Position numbers and translations under genes: made by a program
Shown: positions 55,073 to 61,453 of the stretch, piece by piece
How the letters are laid out: every line of letters starts with the position of its first letter
How positions within the stretch are numbered: position 1 is the first letter of the stretch
Notes under the pieces: generated by a model
Databases searched by the model: none
What the model was told of the DNA's origin: nothing
What the model saw: only the letters and a program-made list of their open reading frames with translations
NCBI GenBank assembly: GCA_963924555.1
Contig: OZ004581.1
Coordinates: 6,239,338 to 6,303,337 of the forward strand
DNA length: 64,000 bases
DNA from: Crambe crambe
Lineage: Eukaryota > Porifera > Demospongiae > Poecilosclerida > Crambeidae
Reading direction: 5' to 3'

Positions 55073-55524
55073 CTAGATTTGCACTAGCATTCCTTGTATA
55101 AGTATGAAACACATACTTTCAGATATTGCATATCACCGCATTGGTATGCATTACATGCAATTTTGTATGAATTACATACTATAATAATAAATACATCAAA
55201 CAACATGTTCTATCATGTTTATAAAATGGTTAAGTTTTGGGGGTAGCTATATAGCATTTATAAAAATCACCTCTAAAAAGAATAAAAATTTGCAGTACCA
55301 TTCTTGTACCTAATGTTGAAAACATAATAAGCATAATACTATAGGAATGTTAATTGGGTTTATTTTTGACAAAATAGTTCCTTCAATTGAGAGAACGGCA
55401 TCTTTTACTTTAGTTGCTGTTCCCCTCACCATACATACAGGCTGAGGGTTGCCCTCCTTGGACACGTCAGCAAATTCAAAGGTTCAATTAGTTATAGCTA
55501 GCTTAACTCAGAAAAGGTCCTTAA

Positions 55525-55719
55525 AGGGTAGGTTGAATGAAAAAAAATTTTTTTTTTAAATATCACCAAAACCCTTTCAAGGTAGTCTATAAACTAAATA
55601 TATTACAATTTTAATTCACACTACAGCATAACACCCACAAAAAATCATTCAATTCAGCTATTTACTTCCTGTTGTGGGCGGGGCTTAACGATGACGCAGA
55701 CGTAGGGATTCATTTGGCC
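55525..55719. repeat. Ginger left terminal inverted repeat
   Basis: 195 bp, matching 60428-60640 in reverse with a few indels. Shared internal blocks include ACCCTTTCAAGGTAGTCTAT and TGTGGGCGGGGCTTAACGAT. The GC-box-like GGGCGGGGC may be a promoter element used from both ends. The repeat ends ...TTCATTTGGCC, and the following TGTCACG is also found at 59434-59440 in reverse, on the far side of the nested palindrome. Confidence 0.9.
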
Positions 55720-55958
55720 TGTCACGAATAATTTGGACCCCTCAATTTTGGACCCCCAGGTCCATATTTTATATAGTGAAAGGACCCCCCAGTCCAAATA
55801 CTATGCGGCCATTTGTCCACCTGGTCCAAATACTTCAAATACAGCTGAAGTATAAGGACCCCACTTGAAGTAATTGGACCTTATTATTAATCAGGGGTCC
55901 ATAAAATATGGACCCCCTCAAAGTAACTATTATAATTTTTTAAATGTCAGTTAGTATA
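55720..55958 (-). other. Ginger 3' non-coding part with GGTCCATA inverted repeats
   Basis: GGTCCATATTTTATATAG and GGGTCCATAAAATATGGACC face each other, with repeated GGACCCC motifs between. It may be a small fold-back inserted in the element's 3' UTR, or an internal structural repeat. Confidence 0.5.
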
Positions 55959-57107
55959 TCATGACTTGCACTTCTTGCACATCCACAAGACACTACGGTT
56001 AAGAGCTGCTTCGGGAGGAACTTTGACACACATGTCAAGATGGAACCATTCTTTGCAATCTGAACATTCGATCATTTTCCCAAACTTTGGGAGCCGACAG
56101 AAACAATATAAAGAAAATTTTTGTGTGTTTTTCACCCGAGTTAAAGCCCTACGAGTCTTATCATATGGAAACAGCACCATCTTTTTATCTGAAAAACATT
56201 TAAGCAAATGAGGACGCATTTCATCTTGTATGAAATGGTAACCTTCAGGCTGATGGCCAAGGGCTAAAGCAGTTGCAAAAGCAATTGCAAACATGCCGCA
56301 ATTTGATTGTCCATACTGCATCTGAACATTGATAAATTGTAGGTCAACTTCTTTTTCTTCTGAAGAGAGCAAGCAAGCAATCTGCTTCTCAACGAAAGTA
56401 CTGACTGTTGGATATGCACTATCATATACATATACAGTAGGATGTACAGTGCCTATTGTTGACACAAGAAGCCAGTGACCATTGCCAGTGTTCAATATTT
56501 GTAAAAACTCAGAGGTTTGAACTGAAAAAGATAATGTAAGTCCACAGCAGACTTTTTGAAGGCCACTGACAGGACATATATCTTTAATAAGGGTTTGTGC
56601 TGCATCAATGATGCTGTCAGTCACCCAACTTTCATTATTCATAAGAATATTCTTATCTGACATGTAAAGATTGAGCTCCGGTATCCATTTCTGTGGAGGA
56701 GGGTGTTTTGGCTGATAGTCTTCAACCACAATTGGATTAGTAACAGGATGCTTGGAAAAAATTACTTGCCTCCTAGTTGATCGTTTCTCTAACATCAACC
56801 TTCTAATACAAGTCTTTTTTGGCATGGGGCTATGATCAAAAGATAATTCAGGTCTTGATTTAATAGGTCGACCAGGTACAGAATTGAGCTGTTCAGATCC
56901 AATTTGATGTGAAGGCAGAGCTTTTGAACTGCTTGAAATTGGACGAGTTATGATTGGAGATGGGGATACTTCTAGTGTAATAGGAAAAAAGAATGAAAAA
57001 TCACTGGATTTACGCTTTGGTGTACTGGCGACAAATCTTGAACAATTTACAGCACCCATGTAATCCTGGTCTTCAGAGACATCATCATTAAATTCATTAA
57101 CAGGAAT
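55959..57107 (-). CDS. Ulp1-type cysteine protease with C-terminal PHD finger (Ginger)
   Basis: Main exon of the second Ginger coding unit. It begins after a GCATGCAG acceptor with IPVNEFNDDVSEDQDY; the open frame upstream of that is intronic. Numbering from the frame's first Met at 57149: a low-complexity Ser/Pro region (45-130), then a C48/Ulp1 domain with catalytic-type H225 (GNGHWLLVS), D243 (VYVYDS), Q281 and C284 (GQSNCGMFAIAF). A PHD finger follows with C349, C351, C362, C365, H370, C374, C391 and C394. Short upstream exons are likely at 57157-57213 (ending ELEMSSPK) and about 57287-57331 (SSSNSASQEEDSLK). A GTATAT in the last integrase exon could splice into them, giving one polyprotein. 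Known: Ulp1 proteases cleave SUMO or polyproteins, and PHD fingers read histone tails. Inferred: processing of the transposase and chromatin targeting. Confidence 0.82.
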   Translation of the reverse strand: MPVNEFNDDVSEDQDYMGAVNCSRFVASTPKRKSSDFSFFFPITLEVSPSPIITRPISSSSKALPSHQIGSEQLNSVPGRPIKSRPELSFDHSPMPKKTCIRRLMLEKRSTRRQVIFSKHPVTNPIVVEDYQPKHPPPQKWIPELNLYMSDKNILMNNESWVTDSIIDAAQTLIKDICPVSGLQKVCCGLTLSFSVQTSEFLQILNTGNGHWLLVSTIGTVHPTVYVYDSAYPTVSTFVEKQIACLLSSEEKEVDLQFINVQMQYGQSNCGMFAIAFATALALGHQPEGYHFIQDEMRPHLLKCFSDKKMVLFPYDKTRRALTRVKNTQKFSLYCFCRLPKFGKMIECSDCKEWFHLDMCVKVPPEAALNRSVLWMCKKCKS

Positions 57108-57349
57108 CTGCATGCATGGTGATGATAACAGTAGAGCCAAAAACAACAATACTAACCTTGGGTGAGCTCATTTCCAATTCACTTAAATTCAATGGAGTGA
57201 TAGAAAAATTGAACTTGTGACCATTCCCATACTAATATACACATGCCATAGAAATTAATTGAAGTAACTGGTTTAATTATGCCAATTACCTTAAGGCTAT
57301 CTTCTTCTTGTGATGCACTGTTACTAGAAGACTATACATAAAATATACA

Positions 57350-57510
57350 TGTGACAGTCGAGGGTAGAAATCAAACTTTATTCACGTTTTAGTCAAACTT
57401 TCCTTTTGTCATGACTGATGCTTTACAATAGAATTTTCTGCCTTTCGAACTTTTTTTTTCGAAAGTAGAAAGCGTGAATAAAGTTTGATTTCTACCCTCG
57501 ACTGTCACAC
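57350..57510. mobile_element. 160-bp MITE inside the Ginger element
   Basis: TGACAGTCGAGGGTAGAAAT at the left and its inverse at the right form about 38-bp termini, extending through CAAACTTTATTCACG. It sits between the two coding units, in a probable intron or spacer. Confidence 0.85.
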
Positions 57511-57536
57511 ATGCATGTTTCATTACACTGTATTCA

Positions 57537-59313
57537 TTATAGTCTAAAATATACCAAGGGGCTTAGAGTCCGATTCCTTTGTAATGGCTTATCATCTTCT
57601 GAATCTGGAGCTATGTACTTTTTGAGATGAAAACCATTAACTCGTGATACGATCTGTAAAGAAACCACTAAAATTAACAAAGTATAAAAATAATAGAGCC
57701 AAAATAACCTTGCCAGTAACATTTTCTTTTAACCTGAAGAGACCTTTTCCCAGTGATGCCAAGATTGTATATGGTCCTACCCAACGATTATCCAGTTTTC
57801 CTCCCTTCCTTTTTTTCCTAAGAAAATCTTTTTTAAGAACAAGAGATCCAACTTTAAAATATGTGGCAGCTCCATTAGCATGTTTTGCATCATAAAGCTT
57901 CTTTTGTTTCGTCTGGGCTTTCAATATATTTGTTTTAATAATACTTTCCATACCACACCTCTCACACGCTACATCTTCATCATCTGGATCACACTTTTTT
58001 TCAAACTCCTTTACTCTTTCATCTGGATCTTGTATACCAGTATTGATATCAATAGGTAACCTTGCAGTACGACCAAACATAGCCTTGAATGGGGTATACT
58101 TGGTAGATTCCTAGTATCATACACAATCATATCACCACACCATTAGCTTAGCTACTTTCTTTATTGACACACCTGAACTGCAGAGTTATAACTGTACACT
58201 ACAGCTCCTAGATTTTCATCCCAAGATTGACGGTTTTCTTGAGCAAATTTGGCAAGTGAATTACATAATGTCTGATTGTAACGCTCATCCAGGCCATTAG
58301 CTTGTGGATGATAAGGCGTTGTCAATCTGTGGTCAATGTTAAAGGTTTCCATCAATTCTGTATCTAGACGATTATGAAATTCCTTCCCTTGATCAGTTGT
58401 TATTACAGATGGCAGTCCCATTACATAAAATAACTATAAAATTATAAGAAAATATTTAATATCAAGTGTATTAAGCCACTACTGCTTACCTCTCGTAGAG
58501 CACTGACGACATTAATAGCGGCTTTTGTAGGTAGAGCTTTTGCCCATCCAAATTTTGTGAAATAATCCGAAATGGTAAGTATATACCTATTACCTGAAGA
58601 TGATGGTGGAGAAATAGGTCCAATGAATCCATTCCCACATGGAACCATGGTGATTTAACTGGAACAGGATGGAGTTCAGGCCTGACTCTTTCGATTTTCT
58701 TATTCATTGATTGGCAAACGTGACAATGCTCAACCTAGAATGCACATTTTATCTCTTTATTATTATTATTATTATTATTATCATCATCATCATCATCATC
58801 ATCATTTTAAGGGCTGAAAGGAGGAAGAGGAATGAAACTTACCAATTCCACTACATTTTGATACAGTCCTTTCCAGTAAAATCTCTCAGCAACTCTACGC
58901 CATGTTTTGGTTATGCCAAAGTGACCTGATGTGGGATCAAAGTGACATGACTTCAAGATTCGCTTTTTATCTTTAACTCCTGTTATAACTTTCACCTACA
59001 TGATGCATAGTAATAAAACAAGAATGCATGAAGTGTATAAAGTTGGTCGGGAGGAGGGGGAACAAGCAACTAATTATGGAGTGAGCAGTATAATGAGTAG
59101 CTAATTTTACCAACTTAGAGTGTCACTTTTTCTTCTTAGATGACTTACAGTGCCACCTTTTCTTCTTAGATACACCTCTCCCTTTTCGACAATTAGATTT
59201 TTGGCCCTTTTACGAACTGCTCGCTTTTTGTCTTTAGAAAGACCATCCTTGTAACAACCTCTGACAGCATACTCAATAGCAAGATCCAAAATATCATCTT
59301 TCGACTCATCCAT
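57537..59313 (-). CDS. Ginger integrase (HHCC finger, DDE core, GPY/F module), 6 exons
   Basis: Exons by GT-AG sites: 59149-59313 (start MDESKDDILD), 58843-58995, 58490-58734, 58173-58433, 57709-58110, 57537-57653. The HHCC zinc finger is CHFDPTSGHFG in exon 2 and CHVCQ in exon 3. The DDE core shows a first Asp after FHVGM, a second in TTDQGKEFHN, and the Glu region in YHPQANGLDERYNQTL. The GPY/F module is NRWVGPYTI in exon 5, and the C-terminus (NGFHLKKYIAPDSEDD) is in exon 6. Known: this architecture is shared by Ginger transposases and Gypsy-type integrases, and it cuts and joins DNA ends. One reading-frame disturbance appears within exon 3, so this copy is probably inactive. An ATT/ATC microsatellite (58757-58806) fills the second intron. 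It differs from plain LTR integrases by having introns and no adjoining reverse transcriptase. Confidence 0.8.
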
Positions 59314-59459
59314 TTCTTTGTTTCTGGCAGCTGCAGCTGGAGGTCCAAGTACTTCGTTGGCGGAACCGGCACTTCACGCATGCGCTAAAAAATTCGAACC
59401 GGAGGGTACTACGGCTATGGGGGACCATCCACTGCGTGACAGGCCACATGCTATAAATT

Positions 59460-59945
59460 ATGGCAACAGATGGTAGTCTAGGTGACCATAGTTCTGGAGA
59501 AAGCACTTTAGACTCAAGCTCTTCACTAGGAAGTAGTTCAGGTGACAGCTCTCTAGCACTTTCATATGCATCTTCTGAGTTTGAAGGTGCTGATGAGCCA
59601 GAAGGAGTGCATCCATTTCTCTATGAGCCTGTTACCAGTAGTGATGATGATGAAGGGAGTGATTCAAGTGATGGTGACTCACCTAGACTTCTCAATACAG
59701 ATTGGTAAGTAAACAACAGTTCAAGTGTATTGATTTTTTTATTTTTTTTGTTTCTCGATGTTGAAGGTGCACTTGATAATGCCTACAGCTATAGAATGTC
59801 TCTGCTGTAGTGAAATTACAGAAATGATGAATAAAAGATCAACAGAAGAAGTAGGGTGTATTACTCTTCACCCGGGGTTTCAAAGTGTTTGCTTGAATAC
59901 ATGGGTTCTCCAAACCGCATATTATAGCTATAGACAGCAGTATGG
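59460..59945 (+). pseudogene. P2X7 cytoplasmic (ballast/ZCD)-type domain gene, plus-strand copy
   Basis: Exon 1 (59460-59704) starts MATDGSLGDHSSGEST, is acidic and Ser-rich, and ends RLLNTDW at a GTAAGT donor. Exon 2, after TTGAAG near 59765, reads PTAIECLCCSEI, CITLHPGFQSVCLN and on through the spacer as WVLQTAYYSYRQQYG. That is the expected run of the zinc-coordinating cysteine domain known from the P2X7 receptor tail and from many unlinked invertebrate proteins. A 13-bp deletion relative to the other arm removes most of the first CxCGxC cluster and shifts the frame, so this copy is defective. Confidence 0.7.
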
Positions 59946-59982
59946 TGAAAATGCTATTGAAGGAGCTATTCAAGCAAACACT

Positions 59983-60412
59983 TTGAAACCCCGGGTGAAG
60001 AGTAATACACCCTACTTCTTCTGTTGATCTTTTATTCATCATTTCTGTAATTTCACTACAGCAGAGACATTCTATAGCTGTAGGTATTATCATACAGTGA
60101 CCACAAGTGCACCTTCAACATTGAGAAACAAAAAAAAATCTAACTATTCAATACACTTGAACTGTTGTTTACTTACCAATCTGTATTGAGAAGTCTAGGT
60201 GAGTCACCATCACTTGAATCACTCCTATCACTACTGGTAACAGGCTCATAGAGAAATGGATGCACTCCTTCTGGCTCATCAGCACCTTCAAACTCAGAAG
60301 ATGCATATGAAAGTGCTAGGGAGCTGTCACCTGAACTACTTCCTAGTGAAGAGCTTGAGTCTAAAGTGCTTTCTCCAGAACTATGGTCACCTAGACTACC
60401 ATCTGTTGCCAT
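59983..60412 (-). pseudogene. P2X7 ballast-type domain gene, minus-strand copy
   Basis: Exon 1 (60177-60412) has the same start as the plus-strand copy but lacks three acidic codons. Exon 2 from 60112 keeps the first cluster (WCTCGHC, completed across the intron) and continues ECLCCSEI ... GCITLHPGFQSVCLN. After the arm ends, the frame runs into the reverse of the spacer (SSFNSIFTILLSIAIICG), so the domain's C-terminal half is absent. The two copies are thus complementary in what they have lost. The function of such stand-alone domains is unknown. Confidence 0.65.
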
Positions 60413-60427
60413 AATTTATAGCATAAT

Positions 60428-60640
60428 GGCCAAATGAATCCCTACATCTGCGTCATCGTTAAGCCCCGCCCACAACAGGAAGTAAATGTCAATGTCGATT
60501 TCTAGCTGAAAAGAATGATTTTTTTTGTGGGTGTTATGCTGTAGTGTGAATTAAAATTATAATATATTTAGTTTATAGACTACCTTGAAAGGGTTTTGGT
60601 GATATTAAAAAAAAATCTTTTTTTTCATTCAACCTACCCT
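60428..60640. repeat. Ginger right terminal inverted repeat, outer part
   Basis: 213 bp, inverse of the left TIR, with about 13-20 extra bases near GCTAGAAATCGACATTG. TTAA follows at 60641. Its innermost few bases (CGTGACA, 59434-59440) are separated from the rest by the palindromic insertion at 59446-60427. Confidence 0.9.
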
Positions 60641-60833
60641 TTAATGAAAAAATGGTCGGTATAGCAATTTTCAAACCTGAAAGCTACACCTTTTAGCTTT
60701 TTTTGGTTTTGTTTTGTTGTTTTTTGGTTGGTTTTATGTTTTTTTCAGGGGGGGGGGGTTGTTAAGTTGTGAAGAGTGCTTATGTACGTAACAGTAAAAA
60801 AATTCCTTGACCTCATAATTCAATGGTCAGGAG

Positions 60834-61453
60834 TAGCCTCGTCCCCCCAGGCCCTCTTTTTAGTTATGAATGTGGAGGGCCTAGTACGTGAAGTCACAGG
60901 GGGATAGAACTGGGATAGAACTGGGGTAGAACCGTTTTAATTGGGCATGGGCAGTGCATGAGAGCATTATGACCATGCCCACGCATTTGGGCTATGGACT
61001 GGAGCGACTCCACCAGGTATTCAGAAGAACTTCTGCTGTTTCGCTACAACAAAATTCACTATGGCTATACAACCAAGGACTTACTAAAACTCGTGAAGAA
61101 TTCTGAGGCCGATCTATTTATAATCCAGCTAAGCCTACAATCTAGACTACGTCTTGATAGCTGTACTATCTAACGATAGGCAGCGCTGATACTATCTGCT
61201 GCTAGGCTAGCAAAGCGTAGCAACACTCGAATTCAGTGGCAGCTCAATGGCTCAACGCCTCTTCTTTCTTAGGCCTGGCTGGACCATGTGCTAGTGCGTG
61301 GTCGTAGCACTGATTCGTCATGGTGACGTTTGTGATGTGAATGCGTTTCCTTGGACACACCCACACTATGGGGTTTCTATGGTTTTGCGATATTTTCGTG
61401 TACCAGGCCCTCCACAATCATAATTAAAAAGGAGGGGCCTGGGGACGAGGCTA
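60834..61453. mobile_element. TAGCCTC-family element, 620 bp, with 9-bp target duplication
   Basis: Left TAGCCTCGTCCCC and right GGGGACGAGGCTA continue into GGCCCTC / GAGGGGCC inverted blocks. GGTCAGGAG stands at both sides (60825-60833, 61454-61462). The 8-10 bp duplication size points to the Mutator/MULE group, tentatively. The interior has no recognised gene. It belongs to the same family as 41542-42123 and 47437-47767. Confidence 0.78.

Follow-up and report, generated by a model that had tools for sequence, protein, structure and literature searches.

A probable non-autonomous fold-back Kolobok element from a mirror-doubled KolX gene end, interrupted by a Ginger1-like transposon, in the sponge Crambe crambe

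The window analysed here is a stretch of 64,000 nucleotides from the demosponge Crambe crambe (GenBank assembly GCA_963924555.1, contig OZ004581.1, positions 6,239,338 to 6,303,337 of the forward strand). It contains a palindromic element with its own TIRs and, inside this element, a second DNA transposon. The features are as follows, with KolX exons as predicted from relatives elsewhere in the genome.

55521-55524, no strand: TTAA, left target-site duplication of the fold-back element
55525-55719, plus strand: left TIR of the fold-back element, starting AGGGTAGGTTGAATGA
55716-55719, no strand: GGCC, left target-site duplication of the Ginger1-like element
55720-59441, minus strand: inserted Ginger1-like DNA transposon, 3722 bp, with ends TGTCACG...CGTGACA
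59442-59445, no strand: GGCC, right target-site duplication of the Ginger1-like element
59446-59899, plus strand: left arm of the fold-back element, predicted 5' part of KolX
59460-59704, plus strand: predicted KolX exon 1 (Ser-rich) of the left arm, followed by a GTAAGT donor; a similar exon is present in the C17 element
59767-59970, plus strand: predicted KolX exon 2, from the left arm into the loop; a 13-bp deletion takes out the CxCGxC start
59900-59966, plus strand: loop of 67 bp, the unduplicated continuation of parental KolX exon 2
59967-59970, no strand: TATT junction microhomology, the turn into the element's own complement, placed by the C5 and window sequences and the arm alignment
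59967-60427, minus strand: right arm, inverted second copy of the predicted KolX 5' part
60412-60177 (exon 1), 60113-60176 (intron) and 60112 (start of exon 2), minus strand: predicted KolX pieces of the right arm
60428-60640, minus strand: right TIR of the fold-back element
60641-60644, no strand: TTAA, right target-site duplication of the fold-back element

The two arms and the loop form a near-perfect palindrome, whose calculated folding energy as single-stranded DNA is -532 kcal/mol compared with a mean of -105 (sd 5.35) for 20 shuffled sequences (z about -80). A preliminary description of this DNA had reported the palindrome with two arms of about 450 bp, which is confirmed, although it had assigned 71 bp to the loop. 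Each arm comprises the Ser-rich exon 1, the GTAAGT donor, a short intron and then the start of the cysteine-cluster exon 2. The earlier account of both exons in each arm therefore stands for exon 1 and the beginning of exon 2, but the left exon 2 of the window copy lacks 13 bp that are present in the right arm, and the first CxCGxC cysteines are gone as a result. The left-arm exon 2 runs on through the loop as it does in a relative on C5 and breaks off at the junction. KolX exon 3 is missing from both arms and the fold-back element carries no transposase. The arm pieces alone gave no Pfam match at E values up to 0.1 and no PDB match at E values up to 10. Thus, the P2X7-ballast identity that the preliminary description had read from the arms could be established only through the spliced sequence of a relative.

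The palindromic element extends from 55525 to 60640, with TTAA on either side and the termini AGGGTAGG ... CCTACCCT, and measures 1390 bp once the Ginger insert and its duplicated 4 bp are subtracted. Almost the entire element is inverted repeat, which is the organization of a fold-back transposon. The left TIR of the window copy lacks 16 bp, seen as a gap in the alignment to other loci. Kolobok elements are characterized by TTAA target duplications and RR/YY ends (PMC9587614), and the window copy exhibits both, with TTAA/TTAA and 5'-RR ... YY-3' termini. The repeat of about 200 bp at 55525-55719 and 60428-60640 had previously been taken for a Ginger TIR, interrupted at GGCC on the right; it is the TIR of the palindromic element. 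A separate inverted repeat with 59-bp arms (80%), starting TAGCCTCGTCCCC, lies just to the right of the element at 60834-61453.

Relatives in the same genome point to the source of the arms. An element at C5:3101075-3111495 (TTAA included) has the same TIRs as the fold-back element and is about 10.4 kb long with foreign insertions. It encodes a THAP domain (PF05485, 9.8e-18) at one end and, on the opposite strand at the other end, a three-exon KolX gene whose exons 1 and 2 are those of the fold-back arms, exon 1 being split by about 1.1 kb of other sequence. When exons 2 and 3 of this gene are spliced, the product matches P2RX7_C (PF20478) at 1.2e-18 and, in the PDB, residues 476-594 of the solved cytoplasmic part of P2X7 at 2e-12. 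Because of its size, its foreign insertions and an identity of about 94% to the fold-back element over arm plus loop, the C5 element is regarded as a relative of the parent and not as the parent itself. A second element, on C17, is 3.6 kb long with TTAA and TIRs of about 215 bp at 93% and has the same two-gene layout; its THAP domain matches at 1e-17 and its KolX exon 3 matches P2RX7_C at 1.3e-11. Judged from these genes, each arm of the fold-back element corresponds to the 5' part of KolX, a gene of three exons.

The layout of the C5 and C17 elements, compared by sequence, resembles the published Kol0 design, in which a Kolobok transposase is accompanied by KolX (Kojima and Bao 2022, PMC9587614), and the KolX accessory gene with a P2X7 ballast domain is found in both. 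The same authors argue that KolX is the transposon source of the ballast domain (PMC9587614); the main text of an earlier survey of the domain that they cite (PMC7016195) contains no word beginning with 'transpos'. The suggestion in the preliminary description that the ballast family spreads through transposons is thus sound but already published, and for Kolobok KolX. It had also proposed looking for Ginger TIRs around ballast genes, and the KolX genes related to the arms (C5 and C17) lie instead within Kolobok-type TIRs and TTAA. The signature of the Kolobok transposase is a DDD/E core with C/DxxH (PMC9587614). The C5 and C17 elements yielded weak MULE-type matches below the cut-off (0.0074 and 1.5e-4), in a stretch with 'DVWH', and matched no named Kolobok model. 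The weakness of these matches counts against the Kolobok assignment, no Pfam model naming the Kolobok catalytic core, and the C5 and C17 elements are candidate sources of an intact transposase. Two tandem ballast-domain genes, the ballast part of each in a single open frame, were also seen at C10:1124191-1127101 (L077); the pair lies between the halves of a degraded inverted repeat (71% over 140 bp, 3.8e-18), and the sequences may represent host genes or an old transposon.

The simplest reading of the fold-back element is a MITE-like passenger that would be moved in trans by a Kolobok transposase. A functional alternative is a silencing cassette, in which read-through transcription would give a long hairpin RNA directed against KolX or Kolobok, as proposed for Mu killer. 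A full copy could yield a hairpin of roughly 650 bp per arm, comprising the TIR and the KolX 5' part, and Mu killer is similarly built from a TIR and a partial transposase gene in inverted duplication (PMC3440606). However, the arms hold KolX and not transposase sequence, and a MITE-like element needs no such function to spread; a silencing role is accordingly judged unlikely, albeit conceivable. It is very unlikely that the fold-back element still makes a truncated KolX, consisting of exon 1 and part of exon 2, that would interfere with the full protein. The exon 1 frame and the splice sites are kept in both window arms, as such a product would need, yet the 13-bp deletion shifts the frame of the left exon 2, exon 3 is absent, and the high identity among copies can explain an open frame without selection.

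The existence of the tandem ballast genes on C10, outside elements of the fold-back family, raises the alternative that the element picked up a piece of an ordinary ballast gene of the host. The C10 genes encode different proteins and have their ballast part in one open frame, whereas the captured exons match the KolX of C5 and C17 in the same exon order and in the same position beside the TIR. Capture from a host gene is therefore highly improbable, and derivation from the KolX end of a Kolobok element is preferred.

The genome of the same sponge (143 Mb) was searched with the palindrome. The 86 rows obtained comprise at least 36 fold-back loci, window included, some of them truncated or interrupted. 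The remaining rows belong to the full-type element on C5, to one C9 locus of a second kind and, at C18:11921, to a partial locus with a single arm. Loci were counted by hand from these rows, and copy counts are lower bounds, as the genome search scores the best candidates only. The preliminary description had left the choice between a mobile fold-back element carrying the domain gene in its own TIRs and an inverted duplication formed in place; the 36 palindrome loci establish the former and exclude the latter. Both outer ends were found in 28 of the 35 loci examined, and TTAA is present on both sides in 26 of these 28. Overall, TTAA adjoins 58 of the 63 ends found in the 35 loci, the exceptions being both ends of L006 (ATAA/ATGA), one end of L024 (TTAA/TTTA) and one end each of L025 and L060, these two single ends reading GTCA and TTTA. 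At two loci, L009 and L066, the element's own two flanks are direct repeats (97% over 178 bp and 91% over 142 bp), which exceeds what a TTAA duplication would produce. Both the loci without paired TTAA and these direct repeats weigh against the preferred reading. Reversed-pattern controls of the pattern searches returned 1+3 against 41+50, 2+3 against 63+55 and 7+13 against 64+60. An element with a DUF7869 protein (6.5e-20) occupies L037:2343-3920 within the right TIR of a fold-back copy on C18. The loci L014/L017 and L015/L016 contain only the TIR with part or all of KolX exon 1; flanks are common within each pair, so that by sequence the pairs look like segmental duplicates.

The element inside the window copy encodes on the minus strand integrase-like pieces and an open reading frame that contains a PHD finger and matches Ulp1 weakly. 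The PHD match (2.8e-6) is above its curated Pfam cut-off; rve_3 (1.3e-5), rve (2.3e-4) and Peptidase_C48, the Ulp1 family (0.0058), are all below theirs. Ginger1 transposons are described as having a Gypsy-type integrase core, a C-terminal Ulp1 or OTU domain, a TGTNR end and a 4-bp duplication of CCGG or CCGT/ACGG (Bao et al. 2010, PMC2836005). The inserted element resembles Ginger1 (PMC2836005) in its length of 3.7 kb, its integrase-like pieces, its PHD finger, its 4-bp duplication and the TGTNR-type sequence TGTCA at both ends. It differs from Ginger1 (PMC2836005) in the duplicated sequence, which is GGCC, GACC, GGCC and GGCC in four near-full copies including that of the window; two partial copies each show it on one side only, with AGCC on the left of L072 and GGCC on the right of L073. 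The label Ginger1-like is used on account of this difference. An inverted-repeat element of about 166 bp at 57350-57509 lies within the window Ginger and is missing from the three other near-full copies; elsewhere in the genome it has many copies with 94-99% identity.

These transposon copies decide the order of nesting. L043, L044 and L045, the three near-full Ginger copies outside the window, start with TGTCACG, end with CGTGACA and are flanked by GACC, GGCC and GGCC, respectively; they lack the repeat of about 200 bp and the palindrome, and neither the fold-back TIRs nor the arm matched them at 1e-3. Conversely, the same repeat adjoins the arms at other fold-back loci. With a strict pattern, the joint of TIR, GGCC and arm is found on both arms at 27 of the 36 loci and on one arm at 8, so that at 35 of 36 loci one arm or both adjoin the repeat with no Ginger in between. 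The window copy shows the strict joint on neither side, its left side being split by Ginger and its right side having an extra base; a laxer pattern also accepted the Ginger-split left arm. When the window flanks are joined across Ginger, they align end to end with other loci (96% at best, 90-92% for most of those listed). The bare Ginger copies, the uninterrupted fold-back copies and this alignment identify Ginger as the inserted element, which by sequence comparison entered the left arm of the window fold-back at GGCC at a later time. The preliminary description had the reverse, in which a fold-back element had entered the right TIR of a Ginger at GGCC. GGCC does lie on both sides of the Ginger-like stretch, which the two 200-bp repeats flank, but it marks the insertion of Ginger and not that of the palindrome, and this nesting is extremely improbable.

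The junction pattern of the palindrome is found in 35 of the 36 loci, and the remaining locus (L026) has the same junction with a 2-bp insertion, which indicates that one founder gave rise to these copies. Palindromes can originate locally, but an inverted duplication in place at the window locus only has virtually no probability, given a junction common to 36 dispersed loci and the lack of any match at 1e-5 among the 150-bp flanks of different loci. The turn itself is readable by comparison with C5, where KolX reads ...GGAGCTATT|AATGAG; the fold-back element reads ...GGAGCTATT|CAAGCAAAC, the complement of the arm from the common TATT onward. At the C9 locus (L010) the turn is another one, located in exon 3 or just beyond it and accompanied by a short reversed patch. 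L031-L033, whose arms are more diverged, turn at a third point close to where exon 2 begins. Three distinct junctions imply that the KolX end was palindromized at least three times. All three derive from the KolX end, and three events are too few to establish an end bias; a search with the transposase end of C5, TIR left out, gave 11 matches with no inverted pair, and that end thus yielded no example of a fold-back. A second family of palindromic elements flanked by TTAA, the TTAAAGGGTAGGTGAAATGA family of about 1036 bp with TIR AGGGTAGGTGAAATGA, occurs at L040 and similar places. It is palindromic over its full length and has the GGGCGGGGCTTA subterminal motif in common with the KolX fold-back; KolX gave no match to L040 at E values up to 1.

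Arm distances were determined for the 22 of 36 loci at which both ends were located, a long insert was absent and the length was 1380-1440. The mean K2P distance between copies is 1.3% among left arms and 1.55% among right arms, and the left-right distance is 2.35%, equal within and between copies. In a tree of these arms, left and right arms form separate groups, with the exception of one left arm (L027). The arms are thus not visibly homogenised within copies, and the equal left-right distance within and between copies suggests that the arms of the founder were probably not identical. This is a point against birth by a simple intramolecular fold-back; two different copies, and not a single folded strand, may have been joined at the turn.

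Presumably, an inverted copy was made of one end of a KolX-bearing Kolobok (the TIR, KolX exon 1, the intron and the greater part of exon 2), with template switching as the likely birth event and the turn placed at the 4-base TATT match. The palindrome would have kept two intact TIRs and could then be moved in trans by the Kolobok transposase, which would account for its spread to at least 36 sites, mostly TTAA, before the Ginger1-like transposon inserted at a GGCC in the window copy's left arm. The direct observations, namely the structure, the relatives of the parent gene, the TTAA sites, the common junction, the Ginger duplications and the uninterrupted counterparts, make it very probable that the locus holds a non-autonomous fold-back Kolobok from a mirror-doubled KolX end, later interrupted by a Ginger1-like element. 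The observations of the preliminary description are in part confirmed and its interpretation is in part supported. With the nesting order corrected, the full relatives present in this genome show the ballast gene in the palindrome to be transposon cargo. When P2X7-like ballast genes of invertebrates are annotated, Kolobok TIRs and TTAA should therefore be looked for. A fold-back transposon with a readable source gene, turn point and later interruption also helps to test how palindromic transposons are born.

The Kolobok superfamily, KolX and enlarged-TIR derivatives in another superfamily (Galileo) are already known. The recurrent palindromization of a KolX end, with at least three distinct junctions, seems to be new; no earlier report of KolX-carrying Kolobok fold-backs was found in the main texts of the open-access literature searched. 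The window element is like Kolobok Kol0 (PMC9587614) in its TTAA duplications, its 5'-AG...CT-3' termini and its relatives in the genome, which have a THAP-containing transposase-like gene and a KolX with the ballast domain. Unlike Kol0 (PMC9587614), it has no transposase and consists of two inverted copies of the KolX end. Mu killer of maize occupies one locus, contains transposase sequence and has been reported to cause silencing (PMC3440606). Both Mu killer (PMC3440606) and the fold-back element are inverted duplications that combine a transposon end and a portion of a transposon gene, whereas the fold-back element, known here from DNA, exists in many mobile copies and carries KolX sequence. 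By this analogy, it might be imagined that a repeatedly palindromized KolX end (at least three junctions) produces mobile hairpins that feed a small-RNA response against the parent, as a spreading, non-plant counterpart of Mu killer, but this combination is judged quite improbable. Galileo and other Foldback-type elements of Drosophila (PMC3573991; PMC3688188) offer a further comparison. As in Galileo (PMC3573991), long TIRs have been enlarged by the recruitment of adjoining internal sequence, and a THAP domain, here in a putative transposase of the relatives, is associated with the system. Galileo belongs to the P superfamily (PMC3573991), whereas the window element is assigned to Kolobok and has KolX exons in each arm.
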